64,000 nucleotides of DNA from Ilumatobacteraceae bacterium (lineage in GTDB: Bacteria > Actinomycetota > Acidimicrobiia > Acidimicrobiales > Ilumatobacteraceae): contig JANYKU010000089.1 in NCBI GenBank assembly GCA_025358075.1, forward strand, positions 1-64,000. The letters are read 5' to 3'. Numbering within the stretch: the first letter of the stretch is position 1; each line of letters starts with the position of its first letter. A program made the translations under genes and the position numbers. Positions 42,070 through 54,995 of this stretch are shown piece by piece. The notes below the pieces were generated by a model. The model was given only the letters and a program-made list of their open reading frames with translations. It did no database searches and was not told where the DNA came from.

Positions 42070-42171
42070 ATCTGAAAAATCGGCGATGAATTGCCCTGAC
42101 GAGTTGCTCGCGCTGCACGCTGCCGATTGACTGCGCCGCGCCCCACACGGGCACGACAACCGAGGAGCACA

Positions 42172-42633
42172 ATGAGATACACCCTCAGAGTGCTCGTCGC
42201 GGTCACGAGTGTGCTGACCGTCGCATCGCCGGCTTCCGCCGGCTCCGTCCATTCCGCCGCCGCCGATCGGGCGTACGTCGAACACATGCTGTACGCCACA
42301 CCGATCAGCGGATTCATCGCCGCCGTCGGCAGCGACCAGTGGTTCAACTGGAGCACCGACTTCTGCTCGGCACCGCTGGTCGGCAACACCGGCCGGTCGT
42401 TCAACTTCACCAATGCCTGCCGTCGTCACGACTTCGGGTATCGCAACTTGCACCTGCTCGACCGACGCTATGGGTCCGGCAACTGGAACAGCATCAGTCG
42501 CCGACGCGTCGACCGCCAATTCTTGGTCGACATGATGGCCCATTGCCGGTCACGAGCCTGGTACGACGAGCCGACATGCTTCGCCTGGGCCGAGACCTTC
42601 TACGCGGCGGTGCGCATCGCCGGCGGGGTCTGA
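42172..42633 (+). CDS. secreted prokaryotic phospholipase A2
   Basis: A 153-residue protein with a signal peptide (LRVLVAVTSVLTVASPASAG) and the prokaryotic PLA2 core: the catalytic His-Asp dyad in NACRRHDFGYRNL, four Cys that can form two disulfides (DFCSAP, NACRRH, AHCRSR, PTCFAW) and a Gly/Ser-rich N-terminal substrate loop. It matches the Streptomyces violaceoruber enzyme type in size. ATG at 42172 has CGAGGAG 7 bases upstream. It should release fatty acids from phospholipids outside the cell. Confidence 0.9.
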   Translation: MRYTLRVLVAVTSVLTVASPASAGSVHSAAADRAYVEHMLYATPISGFIAAVGSDQWFNWSTDFCSAPLVGNTGRSFNFTNACRRHDFGYRNLHLLDRRYGSGNWNSISRRRVDRQFLVDMMAHCRSRAWYDEPTCFAWAETFYAAVRIAGGV

Positions 42634-44080: not shown

Positions 44081-46034
<1,954 letters not shown>

Positions 46035-46093
46035 GGGTGCGGGCCTCCGTTGGCATTGGCACTCGGGTACGGGGTGAGGGTTACGTGTCTGCG

Positions 46094-46120
46094 TTAGCAC
46101 TCGGCTACCGCGAGTGCCAA
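46094..46120 (-). promoter_or_regulatory. CIRCE element (HrcA operator) of groES-groEL
   Basis: TTAGCACTC-N9-GAGTGCCAA differs from the CIRCE consensus (TTAGCACTC-N9-GAGTGCTAA) at one base. On the minus strand TTGGCA at its far end can serve as the -35 box of groES, with the near arm at the -10 position. Confidence 0.92.
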
Positions 46121-46142
46121 TCCTAGGCGCTGGCCATGGCCG

Positions 46143-46169
46143 TTAGCAACCGGGAGGTGAGAGTGCTAA
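46143..46169 (+). promoter_or_regulatory. second CIRCE-like element, at the promoter of the paralog operon
   Basis: TTAGCAACC-N9-GAGTGCTAA keeps the exact N9 spacing and a perfect right arm, with two mismatches in the left arm. It begins 49 bases after the first CIRCE and lies 26 bases before the ATG at 46195, where a -35 region would be; CAGGAT (46181-46186) may be the -10 box. Confidence 0.7.
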
Positions 46170-46194: not shown

Positions 46195-47757
46195 ATGCGC
46201 GATACTCGCGAGGTGAAGGCCTCTGGCCTGCAGGGCGATTCGCCGTCGGAGATCATCGAGATTTTCGACGGCGATCCGGATGGCTTCGATAACCGCGCCC
46301 AGAGTCACACGACCGACGACCACGGAGGCCCACGATGGATCGGGCCGGTCGCCGTGCTCGCCCTCGTCGCCGTGATCGGCTATGGGGTGGTGACCTCGAC
46401 CTCGGCGAGTAGGTCACCGAAGGTGGCCAGCGCTCCGAGCACCTCCCAAGTCCCACGAACGACGCTGCCGGCGCCGTCGACGACCTTGCCGCCACAGCCC
46501 ACCGTTCCCTTCTACGCGGCAGACCCGCCGCGCCAGTTCAAGATCCAGTACGCCGATGCTGCAATCGCCGACAGGGGCATCGGAGGCGACAGCAGGTTCC
46601 AGCTGTGGGCAACGCGGGCTTCGATTTCCACGCCGCGATCATGGTTCTCGATCACCAGCTCCCCTGGCAGTAGTGGCCTCACGGTTCAGAGCGCCTACCG
46701 ATTGAAGACCGACCGCGGCGTGTTCGCGATCTCGCATCTGCCGTCGGGACAATCGAGCGCACAGTTCTGGTCGAACTCGGACTGGCTACTTCTCACGGCG
46801 TTCGGTTTCAGTGACGACGACCTGGTGCGGCTCGCCGAGTCGGTCACCGTTGGCAGCAGCAACAACAACAGCACCAGCGGCACGTTCTTCTTCGCCGAAC
46901 CGGCCCTCGTCGCCGGCTACGAAATGATCAGCACCGTGGATCCATGGGCCGCGGTTCAAGGCCAACCCCCGGAACAGGTCTTCTACTCGGCTGCCGGTGA
47001 TCCGTTCGGTGGCTTCGGCATCAGCGTCGCGCCGCTGCGGCTCGGGGGCAACGGCGACTTCACGCTCGATCGACAGAGCGCGCTCCAGTTCCTGATCGAC
47101 AACGTGTCGCCGTTCACCGTCGACGGGCACGATGCCGTTGCCGGTGACCTCATCACCCAGCCCGGCTTCGCCCTCGCCAGTTGGTCGGCCGGCGATCACA
47201 TGGTCACGGTGTCGGGAAAGATGTCGGTGCCGCAACTGATCGCCATCGCCCAAACCGTGCACCAAGTCAGCGCCGAAGAGTGGGCGGGCATGAAGTTCCA
47301 AGCCATCCACAACACCGCAGAGACCAACAACAGCAACAACAACTCGGCGGTCAACACACCGACACCCGTGCCCGTGTCGTTGGGTACCGACGGCCTTGCC
47401 AGATCATGGACGATCCGAGCGGCCCTGGCCACGTACGGCAACATCCGCCAGATCAATTGGGAATGGAACTGGAACGACGGCAACATCTCGACGACACCAC
47501 AAGACGGCGCGCAGATCAACACCGTCGTCGATAACGACCGCACGTACGTGCTCGCCGACCTGCCCCGGGCAATCGCTGCCACGGCCGAGTTGCACGTCAC
47601 CCCGGCTGGGCTCGACCCTGTGGTGATCCCGTTCAACGACATCGATCCGTCGTCGGACCGCACCCTCGCCGCCTACGCGTTCAGCGAGCCCGGGCCGTAC
47701 ACCGCCCAGGTCGTCGGTGCCGATGGCACCGTGCTCGCCACCTGGCCGTCGTCGTGA
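46195..47757 (+). CDS. paralog A: Cys-free single-pass membrane protein of an undescribed four-member family
   Basis: About 520 residues. A short acidic cytoplasmic start (SEIIEIFDGDPDG) is followed by GGPRWIGPV and one membrane helix (AVLALVAVIGYGVVTS), a Thr/Pro/Ser linker and a large outside part. In the outside part two related-looking modules end in DDDLVRLAESV and VPQLIAIAQTVHQVS, similar in style to DUF4367-type repeats, and the last domain ends in a DGTVLATWP motif. Asn-rich stretches (SSNNNST, ETNNSNNNS) occur only in this copy. No Cys. ATG at 46195 is chosen, 8 bases after CAGGAT; a GTG at 46213 would match the paralogs' starts. Function unknown. Confidence 0.75.
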   Translation: MRDTREVKASGLQGDSPSEIIEIFDGDPDGFDNRAQSHTTDDHGGPRWIGPVAVLALVAVIGYGVVTSTSASRSPKVASAPSTSQVPRTTLPAPSTTLPPQPTVPFYAADPPRQFKIQYADAAIADRGIGGDSRFQLWATRASISTPRSWFSITSSPGSSGLTVQSAYRLKTDRGVFAISHLPSGQSSAQFWSNSDWLLLTAFGFSDDDLVRLAESVTVGSSNNNSTSGTFFFAEPALVAGYEMISTVDPWAAVQGQPPEQVFYSAAGDPFGGFGISVAPLRLGGNGDFTLDRQSALQFLIDNVSPFTVDGHDAVAGDLITQPGFALASWSAGDHMVTVSGKMSVPQLIAIAQTVHQVSAEEWAGMKFQAIHNTAETNNSNNNSAVNTPTPVPVSLGTDGLARSWTIRAALATYGNIRQINWEWNWNDGNISTTPQDGAQINTVVDNDRTYVLADLPRAIAATAELHVTPAGLDPVVIPFNDIDPSSDRTLAAYAFSEPGPYTAQVVGADGTVLATWPSS

Positions 47758-49241
47758 AGACCGAGCGCCTGCCCGAGATCATCCAGGTCATCGAGCTCAT
47801 CGACGACGACAGCGACGCGTTCGGCGACCGGCAACGCACCGGCACGAGCAACGACACCGGTGGCCCGCGGTGGATCGGGCCGGTTGCTGCGGCGGCGCTG
47901 GCCAGCCTGATCGGCTACGGCGTGATCACCTCGGCGTCGACCAACGGGGCACCGAAGACCGCATCGATCACCACGACAACCGTCGCCTCGACTCCAACGA
48001 CGCGGCCGGATCCGGCCAGCAGCGTCGTGCCGGCCGTGGCAGATGCGTACTACGCGGCCGACCCGCCGCCCGGGTTCACGGTTCAATACGCCAACGTCCA
48101 ACCGCTCGACCACCCCCCCTTCCAGGGATACGGCTACGAGCTGTGGGCCACCCCCGACGCCTCAGCGTCCTCGGGTAGGTGGTTCTCGGTGGTGACCTAC
48201 AGCGGCGCCTCCACGCTCACCGCGCCCGACGCCTATCTGCTGGTGGCCGGCCCGCTGTCGTTGGCGATCTCGCACACGGCAAGCGGACACACCATCACCC
48301 AGTTCTCCGAGAACGGGCGCATCGGCGTCACGATCACGTCGTTCGGGTGGACCGACGACGACCTGGTGCGGCTGGCAACCTCGATCCAGGCCGACGAGCA
48401 CAGCGTGGGCTTCACCGACGCATGGTTCCAATCCGACCTCGCTCTTGTCAGCAACGTGCAACCGTGGCTGGCGGTGCAGAGCATTCCCGCCGAGCAGATC
48501 AGCTACATGGCAACCAGCGACCCGGCCAACAACGTCGTCATCACCGTCGGTCACCGTTTGCAACTGGACGAAGTCGGATCGGCCGACCAACGCCAGATCG
48601 CCATGCGGTTCCTGCTCGACCCGAACGTTCCCTTCAACGTCGACGGCCAGCAGGCAGTCGCCGGCACCATCGTCGGCCAGGGCGACCGCGCCCTGGCCAC
48701 GTGGATCAGTGGCGACCACGTCATCACTGTCAGCGCAAACATGCCCGCCTCGCAACTGATCAATGTCGCCCGCACCGTGCACCAGGTCTCGGCGCGAGAG
48801 TGGGACGGCATGCGCTTCCAGGCCGAACACAACCAGGTCAGCACCTCGCGCTACGAACACGGTTCTGCACACACGCTGGCCAGCGGGTCCGACACCAACT
48901 CCGAAGTCACGATGGCGACTGCCGTCGTCGGCGGGCAGCGACAGATCAGTTGGTCGTGGGGCAGCAACGGCTTGGCCACCACGCCAACCGACGTGGCACA
49001 GATCCACACGATGGTCGACACCGATCACACCTACGTGCTGGCCGATCTGCCGCGCAACGTCTCCTCGTCAGGTTTCTTGAACGTCGTCCAGAACGGGCAT
49101 CAGTTCGTCATGCCGTTCATCGACGTCGATCCATCCGTCGACCGCACTTTTGCCGCGTTCACCGTCGCCCTACCAGGACCCTTCACCGTCGAGATCCTCG
49201 GCGCGGACGGCGCAGTCCAAGCCGTCTGGCCCAAGCCGTGA
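47754..49241 (+). CDS. paralog B of the Cys-free membrane protein family
   Basis: A 495-residue paralog starting at GTG inside the stop of paralog A (GTGA). Shared landmarks are PEIIQVIELIDDDSDAFGD, TGGPRWIGPVAAAALASLIGYGV, YYAADPPPGFTVQYA, WATPDASASSGRWFSV, FGWTDDDLVRLATS, PFNVDGQQAVAGTIVGQ, ASQLINVARTVHQVS, HTYVLADLPR and PGPFTVEILGADGAV. The cytoplasmic part is only about 40 residues, so any signalling would have to run through that acidic helix. No Cys. Confidence 0.75.
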   Translation: MKTERLPEIIQVIELIDDDSDAFGDRQRTGTSNDTGGPRWIGPVAAAALASLIGYGVITSASTNGAPKTASITTTTVASTPTTRPDPASSVVPAVADAYYAADPPPGFTVQYANVQPLDHPPFQGYGYELWATPDASASSGRWFSVVTYSGASTLTAPDAYLLVAGPLSLAISHTASGHTITQFSENGRIGVTITSFGWTDDDLVRLATSIQADEHSVGFTDAWFQSDLALVSNVQPWLAVQSIPAEQISYMATSDPANNVVITVGHRLQLDEVGSADQRQIAMRFLLDPNVPFNVDGQQAVAGTIVGQGDRALATWISGDHVITVSANMPASQLINVARTVHQVSAREWDGMRFQAEHNQVSTSRYEHGSAHTLASGSDTNSEVTMATAVVGGQRQISWSWGSNGLATTPTDVAQIHTMVDTDHTYVLADLPRNVSSSGFLNVVQNGHQFVMPFIDVDPSVDRTFAAFTVALPGPFTVEILGADGAVQAVWPKP

Positions 49242-50716
49242 GCACTGACGAATCCCTCGAGATCATCGAGATCATCGACGACGAGACCGATCCGTTCGGC
49301 GATCGTTCGCCTACGGTCGCGATCGACGACGCGGGCGGGCCCCGATGGATCGCACCGCTCGCCGTCGCCGCGCTGGTCGGCCTGATCGGTTACGGCGTGG
49401 TGACCTCGGGCGGCGGTTCGCCAAAGGCCGCACCGGTCACCAGCACCCGCACGGCGCCACCGACCACACCGGCGCCGACGACGACCAACGTCGTCGCGCC
49501 ACCGGCCTTGGCGTACTACGCAGCGCAGCCGCCGCAGGGGTACTCGGTGCGCTTCGCCCAGAGCCAGCAGTTCGCCAACGATTTCGGATTGATCGACTAT
49601 CAGTTGTGGGCCACGCCCGATGCCTCGGCGGCAATCGGATCGTGGTTCTCGGTCACCACATCACCGGGTGCCCCTGCGATGTACGCGACGGACTCGTACC
49701 GGCTGCAGGGCGGCGACCTGTCGATCGCCATGTCGCGCACGACCGACGGGCACGCGGTGGCCCAGTTCACCATTCCCGGCCACACCGGGGTGACCGTCGC
49801 CTCCTTCGGCTGGAGCGACGACAACCTGGTGCGGTTGGCGTCGTCGATGCAAGCAAATCAGTACGGATTCGCGTTCACCGACAACTGGTTCACCTCTGAC
49901 CATCAACTGATCAGCACGGCGCAACCATGGCTCGCTGTGCGCGGACTGCCGGTCGAGCAGATCGTCTACACGCCGTCCACGGATCTCAGCGACGCCGTCG
50001 TAGTCACCGTCGGTCAGTTGCCTCCTGTCGCTGCGGGACCAGCGACCGACGACCGTCAGGTCGCGCTGCGCTTCCTGCTCGACCGCAACACACCGTTCTC
50101 CGTCGACGGACATTCTGCGATCGCCGGCACCGTGATCGGGCAAAGCAACTACAGCATCGCCACCTGGCTCGACGGCGACAACATCGTCACGGTCGGCGCA
50201 ACGGTGCCGGTGTCGCAGCTGATCACGATCGCCCGATCGGTGCACCAGGTCCCCACCTCGGTGTGGGCCGGCATGCAGTACCAGGCCGATCAAGACCAAG
50301 CCGTCCAAGCGACGACCGACGAGACACCATCGCTCCCGGTCTCGTTCGGCACCGACGCCAACTCCGAGCCCTGGACGATCCAGGCGTCGGTAGCCCACCT
50401 CGGCGACCAGCAGAAGATCACATGGTCGTGGAGTGCGCAGAGCGGCGCGACGACGGCGCTCGAGATCGCCCAGATCAACACCGTGGTCGACGACAAGCGC
50501 ACGTACGTGCTCGCCGACCTTCCTCGCGCCGTCGCCGCGGCCGCCGAGCTCCATCTGCTCCGTGACGGGCTCGACCCGGTGGTCATCCCGTTCCTCGACA
50601 TCAACCCGACCCTCGACCGAACGTTCGCTGCCTTCGCCTTCACCGAATCGGGGTCATTCACCGCTCAAGTCGTTGCACCCGACGGAACGGTCCTCGCCAG
50701 CTGGCCCTCGCTGTGA
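49238..50716 (+). CDS. paralog C of the Cys-free membrane protein family
   Basis: A 492-residue paralog, GTG start in the stop of paralog B. It is closest to B: ESLEIIEIIDDETDPFGD, GGPRWIAPLAVAALVGLIGYGV, YYAAQPPQGYSVRFA, LWATPDASAAIGSWFSV, FGWSDDNLVRLASS, PFSVDGHSAIAGTVIGQ, VSQLITIARSVHQVP, RTYVLADLPRAVAA and DGTVLASWPSL. The linker is Ala/Pro/Thr-rich. No Cys. Confidence 0.75.
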   Translation: MSTDESLEIIEIIDDETDPFGDRSPTVAIDDAGGPRWIAPLAVAALVGLIGYGVVTSGGGSPKAAPVTSTRTAPPTTPAPTTTNVVAPPALAYYAAQPPQGYSVRFAQSQQFANDFGLIDYQLWATPDASAAIGSWFSVTTSPGAPAMYATDSYRLQGGDLSIAMSRTTDGHAVAQFTIPGHTGVTVASFGWSDDNLVRLASSMQANQYGFAFTDNWFTSDHQLISTAQPWLAVRGLPVEQIVYTPSTDLSDAVVVTVGQLPPVAAGPATDDRQVALRFLLDRNTPFSVDGHSAIAGTVIGQSNYSIATWLDGDNIVTVGATVPVSQLITIARSVHQVPTSVWAGMQYQADQDQAVQATTDETPSLPVSFGTDANSEPWTIQASVAHLGDQQKITWSWSAQSGATTALEIAQINTVVDDKRTYVLADLPRAVAAAAELHLLRDGLDPVVIPFLDINPTLDRTFAAFAFTESGSFTAQVVAPDGTVLASWPSL

Positions 50717-52212
50717 AGTCGGGAGCCGCACCGGAGACCCTCGAGATCATCGAGATCATCGACGACGAGGTCGAGTTCCGCAATGGTCGCTACACGACCC
50801 ACGATGCGGTCCCCGATGTCGGTCGACGCTGGGTCGGTCCCGTTGCTGCTCTCGCCCTCGTCGCTCTGATCGGCTTCGGCGTGATCACCCCGGCCAACTC
50901 GTCCGGCGCGACGGCACGACCAGTTCCGACCACACCTCCACCGTCCACCACAGTCAACTCATCGGTGGTCGACACCGTGCCCGCCGTCAACCTCATCAGC
51001 CCGCAGTTCTACGTCGCCGATCCGCCGCCGGCCGGCTTCACGATGCACTTCGCCGAAACGCTCGGCATGGGCGGCAACACCGCCGACTTCACCGACACCA
51101 CCACAGCCCAGTTGTGGGCCAGCGACGGAGCAACGGCAAACAGCGGCACGTGGTTCGTCGTCTCGCGTGGCACCCACCACGCCACCGGCCGCAACTCGTA
51201 CCGCACCCTTGCCGGTGATGTGATCGTGGTCGTCGAACACGATCCCGCCTCGGGTCAATCGCGCCTGTCGTTCACCAAGGACGGCGACAGCTTCGAGATC
51301 ACCGCGTTCGGGTGGGCCGATCGGCAACTCCTGCGTCTCGTCGATTCGATCTGGCTCGCAGATTCGAAGATCGAGTTCCAAGACCCGTTCTTCCTCAGCG
51401 ACCACAAGTTGCTGCTCGACGCCGATCCACCGACTGCGCTCTACGGACTGCCGGTCGCGTGGGTGGGCTACACCGTGGCCCTCCCGGCGTCGCTGGCCCA
51501 AAGCTTCACCGTCACCGTCTCCGGCTACCCAACTGCAAACCGCGACGTCGCCATCCGCTTCGCACTCACCGACAGTTCGCCGATCACCGTCAACGGCCTC
51601 CCCGGGATCGTCGGCCGCTCGGCTGCCGACCCCGGATTGGTGATCGTGCAATGGCGTGATGGCAACCGGCTGATCTCGCTTCGCGGCAATCTTCCCCTCG
51701 TTCCTCTCGTGGCCATTGCCCAAACCGTTCAAGCCGCACCCGACGACGCCGTGACGGAAATGGTCGATGCCGGCGCGCAGTCGATCCCGCCCGCACTCGA
51801 TGCACAACCGCACACGGTCGGCTCCGGCTGGCTCGGAGGCCCATGGATCGTGCAGGTCTCGACCGCAAGCTCCGTGGTGACGCCGGAATGGTTCGTGTGG
51901 TGGATCGGGCAGCCGGGCGGGAACTCAACGCCGTCGGAGACGCGGTTCAGCATCGCCGAACCTGGACCCAGCATCGAGACGCTCGTCGAGCAAGGAAGGA
52001 CGTATGTGCTGGCCAAGGTGCCGCGTTCGATGACCGGGGCGACGCTGCACGTCCATCGCAACGGTCAGCCATCGGTGGAGCTTTCACTGCTCGACGTCGA
52101 TCCCGGCCTCAACGATGAGTTCGCCGCGTACGCGTTCGCCGAACCCGTTCCGTTCACCGCCCAGATCGTCGACGCCACCGGACAGACCATCGCGAACTGG
52201 CCGTTGACCTGA
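50713..52212 (+). CDS. paralog D, most diverged of the Cys-free membrane protein family
   Basis: A 499-residue paralog, GTG start in the stop of paralog C. It keeps TLEIIEIIDDEVEF, RRWVGPVAALALVALIGFGV, FYVADPPPAGFTMHFA, FGWADRQLLRLVDS, PITVNGLPGIVGR, LVPLVAIAQTVQ, RTYVLAKVPRSM and PFTAQIVDATGQ, but has lost several charged positions (DDDLVRLA became DRQLLRLV) and has its own C-terminal insertions. It ends the operon; no clear terminator lies in the 8-base gap before the convergent maf gene. Confidence 0.72.
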   Translation: MKSGAAPETLEIIEIIDDEVEFRNGRYTTHDAVPDVGRRWVGPVAALALVALIGFGVITPANSSGATARPVPTTPPPSTTVNSSVVDTVPAVNLISPQFYVADPPPAGFTMHFAETLGMGGNTADFTDTTTAQLWASDGATANSGTWFVVSRGTHHATGRNSYRTLAGDVIVVVEHDPASGQSRLSFTKDGDSFEITAFGWADRQLLRLVDSIWLADSKIEFQDPFFLSDHKLLLDADPPTALYGLPVAWVGYTVALPASLAQSFTVTVSGYPTANRDVAIRFALTDSSPITVNGLPGIVGRSAADPGLVIVQWRDGNRLISLRGNLPLVPLVAIAQTVQAAPDDAVTEMVDAGAQSIPPALDAQPHTVGSGWLGGPWIVQVSTASSVVTPEWFVWWIGQPGGNSTPSETRFSIAEPGPSIETLVEQGRTYVLAKVPRSMTGATLHVHRNGQPSVELSLLDVDPGLNDEFAAYAFAEPVPFTAQIVDATGQTIANWPLT

Positions 52213-52220
52213 CGTCGACG

Positions 52221-52799
52221 TCAGCCGGCCAATCGCAAGAAGTCGATCCCACAGCGTTGGGCGAGCTCGATCACGACGTGCAACGGCAATCCGATCACGT
52301 TGCTGACGCTGCCGCGAACGAGTTGTACCAGTGCTCCGCCGGCACCTTGCAGCGCGTACGAACCTGCCTTGCCCATCGGCTCGCCCGTAGCGACGTACCA
52401 ATCGAGCGTGACGTCGTCGAGATCGACGAACGTCACCAAGGTCGTGCAGACCTCGGCGACCTCGAGATCACCGAGCCGCACGGCGACGCCGGTGTGCACC
52501 TTGTGCGTGCGCGCCGACAGACGACGCAACATCGACGCCGCATCACGCGCATCCAGGGGCTTGCCGAGGATCTCGCCGCCGAGCTCGACCGTCGTGTCCG
52601 CGGCGATGACCAGTTCGTCCGCGGTTGCAATCACCGCGGCAGCCTTGGCAAATGCCAGCCGCCGCACGTACTCCGTTGGGGTTTCGTCACCGGTCGGCGT
52701 CTCGTCGATGTCGGGCACGCGCACCGAGAAGGGCACGCCGATCTGCGTCAGCAGCTCGTGACGGCGCGGCGAGCCAGAAGCAAGGACGACCGCGGTCAT
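52221..52799 (-). CDS. maf: Maf-family nucleotide pyrophosphatase
   Basis: A 192-residue Maf protein with VVLASGSPRRHELL, AADTTVELGGEILGKP (catalytic Asp) and GKAGSYALQGAGGALV. Such enzymes hydrolyse dTTP, UTP or modified nucleotides and are linked to septum formation. ATG at 52799 overlaps the dusB stop. Confidence 0.93.
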   Translation of the reverse strand: MTAVVLASGSPRRHELLTQIGVPFSVRVPDIDETPTGDETPTEYVRRLAFAKAAAVIATADELVIAADTTVELGGEILGKPLDARDAASMLRRLSARTHKVHTGVAVRLGDLEVAEVCTTLVTFVDLDDVTLDWYVATGEPMGKAGSYALQGAGGALVQLVRGSVSNVIGLPLHVVIELAQRCGIDFLRLAG

Positions 52800-53917
52800 C
52801 CGCCGCTGAGCGCCATCACGTGGCCATCGTCCGGCACGGTGAGATCGTCGAGATGATCGAGGTAGCCCTCGGGGAGGGCAACACGAATCGGACCGTTCGT
52901 GTGACCGCGTCGGATCCGCTCGCCACCCTCGACCAGGGCAACGGCCGGGTCCAGCGCGGCGATCAAGTCGTCGAGCTCGGCGAGCGTGCAGATGTTGGCG
53001 AAGCGCCGGCGGACCTCGCCACCCACTGGATACCCGGTGAGGTACCACGAGGTGTGCTTGCGGAAGTCGCGCATCGCCAACTCCTCGCCGAGATGGCCTG
53101 CCAGTAGGTGAGCATGACGAGCCATCACCGCGCAGGCCTCGCCGAGCAACGGTGAAGCAGGCACCGGCCGACCGTTCATCGCTTCGACCAGATCTCGGAA
53201 CAACCATGGCCGACCGAGGCAGCCACGACCGATGACAACCCCGTCGCACCCGGTGGCGCGCATCATCGCCACAGCATCGGAGGCCTCCCAGATGTCGCCG
53301 TTTCCGAGAACGGGGATCTCTGGCACGGCCGACTTCAACTCGCCGATCGCGTTCCAGTCGGCGGTGCCGGCGTAGTGCTGCTCGGCAGTGCGGGCGTGAA
53401 GTGCGATCGCGGCGATGCCCTCGTCGACCGCGATGCGACCGGTGTCGATGTAGGTCAGCAACGATTCGAACAACCCTTTGCGGAACTTGATCGTGACCGG
53501 CACACCGAAAGGCGACGCGGCATCCACCGCGCCACGCAGGATCGCCCGCAGCAAGTTGGGCTTGGCGGGCACCGCCGCGCCGCCACCCTTGCGGGTGACC
53601 TTCGCCGCCGGGCAGCCGAAGTTGATGTCGATGTGATCGATCCGGTCCGCATCGCAGAGCCTGCGGATCGCTTCGCTGAGCATGACCGGATCGCTGCCGT
53701 AGATCTGCAGGCTGCGCGGTTGCTCGTCGGCACCGAAGGTCATCATTCGCTCGGTCTTGGCGTTACCGTGCACGACGGCCGTGGCCATGACCATCTCGTT
53801 GACGTAGATCAGCCCCGGGGCGAACTCGCGGCACATCGAACGGAATGGCGCGTTGGTGACACCGGCCATCGGCGCCAACACAACGGGCGCCACAGGGGTG
53901 AATGATCCGATCCTCAC
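52796..53917 (-). CDS. dusB: tRNA-dihydrouridine synthase (DusB type)
   Basis: A 373-residue FMN enzyme: PVVLAPMAGVTNAPFR, YVNEMVMATA, HIDINFGCPAAKVTRKGGG (catalytic Cys), ALHARTAEQHYAG and VIGRGCLGRPWLF. It reduces uridines in the tRNA D-loop. GTG at 53917 gives the RIGSFTPVAPVVLAPMAG beginning expected for the family; longer frames have no supporting similarity. It follows tsaD by 61 bases on the same strand. Confidence 0.93.
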   Translation of the reverse strand: MRIGSFTPVAPVVLAPMAGVTNAPFRSMCREFAPGLIYVNEMVMATAVVHGNAKTERMMTFGADEQPRSLQIYGSDPVMLSEAIRRLCDADRIDHIDINFGCPAAKVTRKGGGAAVPAKPNLLRAILRGAVDAASPFGVPVTIKFRKGLFESLLTYIDTGRIAVDEGIAAIALHARTAEQHYAGTADWNAIGELKSAVPEIPVLGNGDIWEASDAVAMMRATGCDGVVIGRGCLGRPWLFRDLVEAMNGRPVPASPLLGEACAVMARHAHLLAGHLGEELAMRDFRKHTSWYLTGYPVGGEVRRRFANICTLAELDDLIAALDPAVALVEGGERIRRGHTNGPIRVALPEGYLDHLDDLTVPDDGHVMALSGG

Positions 53918-53978
53918 GCGGGCAAGGCTACGAGCGTTTGCGAGCTCCGGCCCCGACGCCCCGCGTTCCCTGATCGTC

Positions 53979-54995
53979 TCAGTCGTCAAACGCAAGGCGC
54001 AGGTTGGGGAGCGCGCCGACGTCGAGCGGGGTCGGGCCGTCGCTACCGAGGCGATGCCAACCAACGGCGGCGATCATCGCCGCGTTGTCGGTGCACATCG
54101 CCCGGCTCGGTATGAACACAGGAATCGAGTCGGCCTCGCCGGCTGCGACGAACCGTTCGCGCAACAGCGAATTGGCGGCGACGCCTCCACCCAGTACCAG
54201 GCCACGCGCCCCGACCGCGACCGCGGCGCGACGAGCCTTGGTCACGAGCACATCGACGACCGCCGCCTGAAACGATGCGGCCACGTCGGCGGCCGACACG
54301 TCGGGGTTCTTGCGGACGTAGTTGACGACCGACGTCTTCAGACCGCTGAAGCTGAAATCAAGGCCGTCGTTGAGCATCGCCCTCGGGAAGGCGATGGCCG
54401 TCGGGTCACCGCGTGTGGCTTCTTGGTCGATGGCCGGACCACCCGGATACCCGAGACCGAGGAAGCGGGCGACCTTGTCGAACGCCTCACCCGCGGCATC
54501 GTCGATCGTTTGGCCCAGCAGGCGATAACTGCCGTGCCCGCGCATCTCGATCAGCATCGTGTGGCCGCCCGAGACCAGCAGCACCACCAGCGGCATCTCC
54601 AGCGATCGATCCTCGAGAAACGCCGCATAGAGGTGGGCCTCCATGTGATTGACGCCGACGAACGGCACGTGCCACGTGAGGGCCAACGCCTTCGCCGCAG
54701 AAACTCCCACCAGCAGCGCGCCGACGAGACCCGGCCCGATCGTGCACGCCACGGCGTCGATCCGCTCCGGCTCGACGCCCGCTTCGACGATCGCCCTGGC
54801 AACGACCGGATTGAGCAGATCGAGATGGGCGCGGCTGGCGATCTCCGGCACCACGCCGCCGTACTGAGCGTGCAGGTCGACCTGGGTCGACACCACGCTG
54901 GAGAGAACGTCATGGCCGCCCATCACCAGAGCCGCTGCGGTCTCGTCACAACTCGTCTCGATGCCGAGTACGACCGTGGACTCGGAGACGTTCAT
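53979..54995 (-). CDS. tsaD: tRNA threonylcarbamoyladenosine transferase TsaD
   Basis: A 338-residue Kae1/TsaD protein with VLGIETSCDETAAALV, the metal His pair in VNHMEAHLYAAFLE, LLVSGGHTMLIEM, GEAFDKVARFLGLGYPGGP and GGGVAANSLLRE. It completes t6A formation with TsaB and TsaE, encoded in the same operon. ATG at 54995 overlaps the rimI stop. Confidence 0.97.
   Translation of the reverse strand: MNVSESTVVLGIETSCDETAAALVMGGHDVLSSVVSTQVDLHAQYGGVVPEIASRAHLDLLNPVVARAIVEAGVEPERIDAVACTIGPGLVGALLVGVSAAKALALTWHVPFVGVNHMEAHLYAAFLEDRSLEMPLVVLLVSGGHTMLIEMRGHGSYRLLGQTIDDAAGEAFDKVARFLGLGYPGGPAIDQEATRGDPTAIAFPRAMLNDGLDFSFSGLKTSVVNYVRKNPDVSAADVAASFQAAVVDVLVTKARRAAVAVGARGLVLGGGVAANSLLRERFVAAGEADSIPVFIPSRAMCTDNAAMIAAVGWHRLGSDGPTPLDVGALPNLRLAFDD

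Follow-up and report, generated by a model that had tools for sequence, protein, structure and literature searches.

The groES gene of this Ilumatobacteraceae genome is preceded by two CIRCE-type inverted repeats, beyond which an operon of four paralogs is read in the opposite direction. This arrangement raises the question of which operon each of the two sites serves. An earlier note on this DNA assigned one site to groESL and the other to the paralog operon, and suggested that HrcA may repress both, which would make the paralogs members of a heat-shock or envelope-stress regulon. The analyses described here lead to a different assignment: the two CIRCE sites very probably constitute one double HrcA operator for groESL, overlapping its promoter. 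We refer to the whole stretch of DNA analysed, which is 64,000 nucleotides long, as the window. Its relevant features are listed in Table 1.

Table 1. Coordinates of genes, CIRCE sites and predicted promoter elements in the window
Feature	Position	Strand	Remarks
groEL (Cpn60), second gene of operon	44081..45727	-	Pfam PF00118, E 4.5e-76
groES (Cpn10)	45741..46034	-	Pfam PF00166, E 6.5e-32
CIRCE site 1	46094..46120	.	1 mismatch; overlaps predicted groES transcription start
Predicted groES -10, TAGGAT, 18 bp from -35	46120..46125	-	TANNNT in 105/105 relatives
CIRCE site 2	46143..46169	.	2 mismatches, both in groES-proximal arm; overlaps groES -35
Predicted groES -35, TTGCTA, inside site 2	46144..46149	-	TTG here in 64/64 dual-site and 40/41 single-site relatives
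Candidate -10, GATACT, of leaderless divergent promoter, 6 bp before GTG start	46201..46206	+	NANA[AC]T in homologues
Paralog 1 (most likely GTG start)	46213..47757	+	Start by homology; alignment; no Pfam or NCBIfam family
Paralog 2	47754..49241	+	4-bp overlap with paralog 1
Paralog 3	49238..50716	+	GTG start inferred from 4-bp overlap
Paralog 4	50713..52212	+	Alignment with other paralogs

CIRCE sites in the window and in the genome

The window was searched for the inverted repeat TTAGCACTC-N9-GAGTGCTAA, allowing up to three mismatches. Two matches were found, compared to none in 100 shuffles of the window, and the idea that site 2 is a chance match was rejected. Both sites have 9-bp spacers, and they are 49 bp apart from start to start. 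The left arm of site 2 is TTAGCAACC, which contains both of its mismatches, and the right arm is a perfect GAGTGCTAA. The earlier note's account of the 49-bp distance, the N9 spacing and the perfect arm is accurate.

In the genome as a whole (4.44 Mb) there are only five CIRCE sites at this threshold, each with one or two mismatches: the pair in the window, an overlapping pair upstream of a second groEL, and a single site between an FmdB-like gene and galU, the latter name being our own reading of a nucleotidyl transferase match. The genome has a single copy of hrcA (TIGR00331, 274.6 bits against a cut-off of 197.2), and hrcA is present in 108 of 121 genomes of the same family. The repeats in the window, which occur above chance, in a genome that has hrcA, and are conserved at a class I heat-shock promoter, look like real CIRCE-type sites and are predicted HrcA operators.

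We note some further features of these and nearby sequences. The groES 5' leader contains a lone CIRCE half-site, TTGGCACTC, at 46056-46064, with no matching partner arm. The two CIRCE before the second groEL (L003 1501-1550; G000:C143:2466-2515) overlap by four bases (CTAG), giving four arms within 50 bp. The remaining CIRCE (L002 1501-1527; G000:C44:52515-52541) lies just ahead of the FmdB-like (Ruc-like) gene, which is divergent from galU and whose protein apparently lacks the zinc-ribbon cysteines. Elsewhere in the window, 42127-42633 encodes a small, apparently secreted protein, which we take to resemble bacterial phospholipase A2 on account of a CRRHDFGYRN motif.

Site 2 and the groES promoter

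A generic sigma-70 promoter scan found no promoter on either strand; the groES promoter boxes given in Table 1 are predicted from conservation. In the minus-strand reading, the last base of the -10 box is also the base at which site 1 begins, and the -35 box lies within site 2. Site 2 therefore overlaps the predicted -35 box of groES, and not that of the divergent operon, where the earlier note had placed it.

Conservation was analysed across 121 genomes of the same taxonomic family. A groES match was found in 117 of them, and 105 upstream regions were used, with 12 partial, contig-edge or distant matches omitted. The genomes are related, and so the counts do not represent independent events. 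Site 1 is present in all 105 regions and site 2 in 64, the dual-site layout being seen in 18 of 23 genera. The second site lies 49 bp upstream of the first in 41 regions, 48 bp in 22 and 47 bp in one. Its mismatches number two in 47 of the 64 regions, three in nine, four in five and five in three. At 287,135 other positions in the same upstream sequences there are no CIRCE-like matches with up to three mismatches. Against the double operator, it must be said that 41 of the 105 regions lack site 2, among them every member sampled from five genera, and the site is therefore not essential.

Read on the groES strand, site 2 has the form TTAGCACTC-N9-GGTTGCTAA. In 55 of the 64 dual-site regions its inner (groES-proximal) arm reads GGTTGCTAA; the two departures from GAGTGCTAA create a TTG within the arm, and this TTG is found in all 64. 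In every one of these regions a TANNNT comes 17 or 18 bp after the TTGnnn hexamer and reaches the first one or two bases of site 1. The outer arm, separated from the inner by an N9 spacer of freely varying sequence, is exactly TTAGCACTC in 48 regions, of which 25 have a co-directional neighbour and 23 do not. In the single-site regions the TTG and the -10 box are kept (40/41) and the outer arm is mostly lost or decayed. The TTG can thus occur without the outer arm, and promoter and operator are distinguishable: the promoter accounts for the retention of the inner arm, and something else must maintain the outer one. The natural reading is that the outer arm is conserved through HrcA binding.

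It could be argued that site 2 is a -35 region that resembles a CIRCE arm by chance, accompanied by a decaying outer arm, and that HrcA no longer uses it. Its loss from the 41 single-site regions, and its degradation to three to five mismatches in 17 of the 64 others, are consistent with this. However, the outer arm has no evident promoter role and is nevertheless exact in three quarters of the dual-site regions (48/64), beyond a spacer that varies freely, and we consider disuse of site 2 to be very unlikely.

In the double operator that we propose for groESL, the promoter is embedded in the two sites: site 2 contains the -35 TTGCTA in its inner arm and, after an 18-bp spacer, the -10 TAGGAT runs into site 1, the body of which would cover the transcription start of groES. 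HrcA dimers would grip this promoter at both ends, one on the -35 box and the other on the end of the -10 box and the start, and HrcA at either site would be expected to block RNA polymerase. Heat or misfolded protein would withdraw HrcA activity, both sites would clear, and transcription of groESL would follow. The two mismatches in site 2, which change GAGTGCTAA to GGTTGCTAA, may be regarded as the cost of a usable -35 box. The arm that appears imperfect is the groES -35 box, and this too undercuts the division of the sites between the two operons. More generally, a natural CIRCE may look imperfect where a promoter box occupies an arm.

The divergent paralog operon

The divergent operon contains four consecutive paralogs (46213-52212) of approximately 490-514 residues, paralogs 2-4 being 33-46% identical to the first. 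Paralog 1 consists of an N-terminal motif, an apparent membrane helix and a long further part; in the four tandem proteins the N-terminal motif is short and acidic (IEIIDDDxxxFG), and it is accompanied by an apparent membrane helix and an α/β region that is repeated. Searches of Pfam and NCBIfam assigned no family to the paralogs, the best Pfam match being to DUF4367 (E 0.18, below the cut-off). The structural model of paralog 1 is poor (pLDDT 53), and a Foldseek search with it gave no match at E ≤0.001, RseB being matched at E 0.01. The paralog region thus gives weak DUF4367 and RseB/PsbP-like hints and no significant sequence or fold match, so that a role in envelope stress, as proposed in the earlier note, is left with very weak fold hints only.

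A scan of genome contigs for the paralog family confirmed no relative. Relatives were found in 15 of the 121 family genomes (E 0.001). On the minus strand of the window, 52221-54064 contains Maf-like and Dus-like frames (named by eye). In the related locus L050, dus and maf are upstream of groES, and dus-maf-groES is the common order. The paralog operon appears to have been inserted between maf and groES.

Leaderless genes in actinobacteria are expected to have a -10 box just ahead of the start. The candidate GATACT upstream of paralog 1 fits this expectation, and a NANA[AC]T is present 6-8 bp ahead of the start in nine of nine homologous divergent genes, although the pattern was chosen post hoc and there are two near-identical pairs among the nine, so that the shuffle count overstates its weight. 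We also considered a leader peptide with a GTG start at 46163, following an SD-like GGGAGG noticed by eye in the spacer of site 2; it was rejected because it is not kept in a relative (L032).

Position of site 2 relative to the divergent operon

If one of the two sites belonged to the paralog operon, it should depend on the presence of that operon. Paralog relatives are divergent from groES in only ten of the 64 dual-site genomes (genera g1, g11 and g18), and all ten keep site 2. The other 54, in which we saw no relative of the paralogs next to groES, also keep it. A maf gene, identified by similarity (Pfam PF02545 for the representative), is the upstream neighbour in 35 of the 64 and is co-directional with groES, which means that there is no divergent promoter for site 2 to serve. 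Clustering gave 33 co-directional neighbours, as against 35 by similarity to maf; 22 of the 64 show no maf in range, and some of the contigs end too soon. Both situations occur in genus g11: L011 combines site 2 with a same-direction neighbour, and in L014, L018, L023, L029, L030 and L037 site 2 is accompanied by divergent relatives of the paralogs. The two profiles used here were both built from the four window paralogs only, and L014, L018 and L030 were assigned to the paralogs from blastp matches to L023, L029 and L037 together with the N-terminal motif.

The distance from site 2 to the divergent start, chosen by homology, is 25, 25, 27, 27, 35, 43 (the window), 48, 48 and 57 bp in nine genomes; the tenth adjacent case, L033, has no clear start and was omitted. 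There is thus no fixed distance between the CIRCE and the divergent promoter. The distance from site 2 to the groES promoter is constant to within 1-2 bp, compared to a variation of 32 bp on the divergent side, and we conclude that the site belongs to groES. That site 2 might be the paralog operon's own operator, separate from that of groESL, is suggested by its location on the paralog side with its perfect arm facing the paralogs, and by its retention in all ten genomes with adjacent paralogs. This explanation is contradicted by its conservation in the 54 genomes where no paralog relative is seen beside groES and in the 35 with co-directional maf, as well as by its position, and we rejected it as very unlikely. 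The allocation of one site to each operon is accordingly not supported.

In genus g21 the paralog relatives are found elsewhere, and all eight sampled groES regions are single-site. This pattern would also be predicted if site 2 were an operator of the paralogs, but the cases with a co-directional neighbour carry more weight. The paralog profile was used to retrieve 30 loci, with approximately 1.5 kb to each side of the match where the contig allows; some of these loci are downstream genes of groES-adjacent operons. No CIRCE at up to four mismatches is present in 24 of them, and in the other six the CIRCE is the groES pair each time. CIRCE sites therefore do not follow the paralog operon to other places, which is moderate evidence against its membership of the HrcA regulon. 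The earlier note had expected its proposal to fail if the second site were lost where the paralog operon is kept. The outcome is mixed: no such loss is seen beside groES, where all ten genomes retain site 2; the loci elsewhere do have paralogs and no CIRCE within the stretches fetched.

A further explanation is that site 2 serves groESL as an operator and represses the back-to-back paralog operon as well, so that the paralogs are induced with groESL. The retention of site 2 in all ten genomes with groES-divergent paralog relatives is in keeping with this, as is the short distance in four of the nine measured cases: with starts only 25-27 bp past site 2, bound HrcA would cover the -35 region of a leaderless divergent promoter, if that promoter assignment is right. 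In the window, however, the start is 43 bp past site 2, which would then span about -70 to -44 relative to the paralog start, outside the core promoter, if the start is right; the GATACT -10 box places the -35 of the divergent operon approximately 8 bp or more beyond site 2. The variation in distance from 25 to 57 bp and the paralog loci elsewhere without CIRCE also count against it, and on balance we think such a shared operator unlikely. HrcA on site 2 might hinder the divergent operon too, but nothing here requires such hindrance. The suggestion that HrcA acts at both sites thus stands insofar as both are operators of the HrcA type and the genome has hrcA, and its extension to repression of the divergent operon has no independent support.

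It is also conceivable, though we doubt it, that the paralog operon was inserted beside a pre-existing double operator and has been kept in three genera because the outer site provides HrcA heat-shock control for free. If true, the operon would have joined a regulon through its position, with no new operator having to arise. Returning to the double operator for groESL, we note that sites between divergent genes need not be shared out singly, and that an easy mis-assignment is corrected here.

Comparison with known systems and other actinobacteria

Paired CIRCE sites have been described elsewhere. For Bifidobacterium (B. breve, B. longum and B. adolescentis), Table 2 of PMC9004370 gives 'GroES, x2' CIRCE; as here, two CIRCE precede groES in a genome with hrcA. 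The relevant passages of that paper do not give the geometry, and the distinguishing feature of the present locus is that one arm of the second site is a -35 box. Two CIRCE over the dnaK promoter of L. lactis are mentioned in PMC1676014. This is likewise a pair over one promoter, but it concerns dnaK rather than groESL, in the Firmicutes, and the likeness noted here is that of the site pair. We found no title or abstract opening on a -35 box within a CIRCE arm, in a search that was mostly outside subscription journals, and do not claim that none exists.

In M. tuberculosis, according to the relevant passages of PMC7448276, the HrcA regulon comprises three chaperonin genes and ruc (ruc/Rv0991c), and at ruc a SigH site overlaps the HrcA site. 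The CIRCE sites in the present genome, at groESL, the second groEL and the FmdB-like gene, mark nearly the same regulon; the difference is that the FmdB-like protein here does not reach the family cut-off, with a score of 17.8 bits compared to the required 31.3.

Across the phylum, groES was matched in 124 of 128 sampled genomes, and 103 regions outside the family were read; two of the genomes contributed a pair of regions each, and groES matches that were weak or partial were omitted. At up to four mismatches within 400 bp, at least two CIRCE are present in 34 of these regions, one in 61 and none in 8. In seven regions, from families f22, f32, f41 and f44, the CIRCE are spaced by 46-47 bp, the upstream site carries TTGACC or TTGCGC at its base 13, and there is a -10 box (TAGATT, TAGTCT or TAGAGT). 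They resemble the window in having a -35 within the upstream CIRCE and a second CIRCE a similar distance on, but differ in that the -35 sits 12 bases into the site and the -10 is between the two sites. There are thus two registers in actinobacteria, with an inner-arm TTGCTA here and a spacer TTGACC or TTGCGC elsewhere, an indication that selection has repeatedly favoured HrcA sites extending over both the -35 box and the groES start site. The layout with the -35 box in an arm is a lineage variant of the known double-CIRCE arrangement. The motif TTRGCACTC-N9-GGTTGCTAA is rare outside the family of the window, since only nine of 396 phylum genomes match it, two of those in another family, f33. 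Other spacings also occur, of 32-35 bp in f23 and of 23 or 46 bp in f29, f33 and f35. In two regions from f29 and f35 (L158 and L213), groES is preceded by three CIRCE at 23-bp steps, with arms shared between them.
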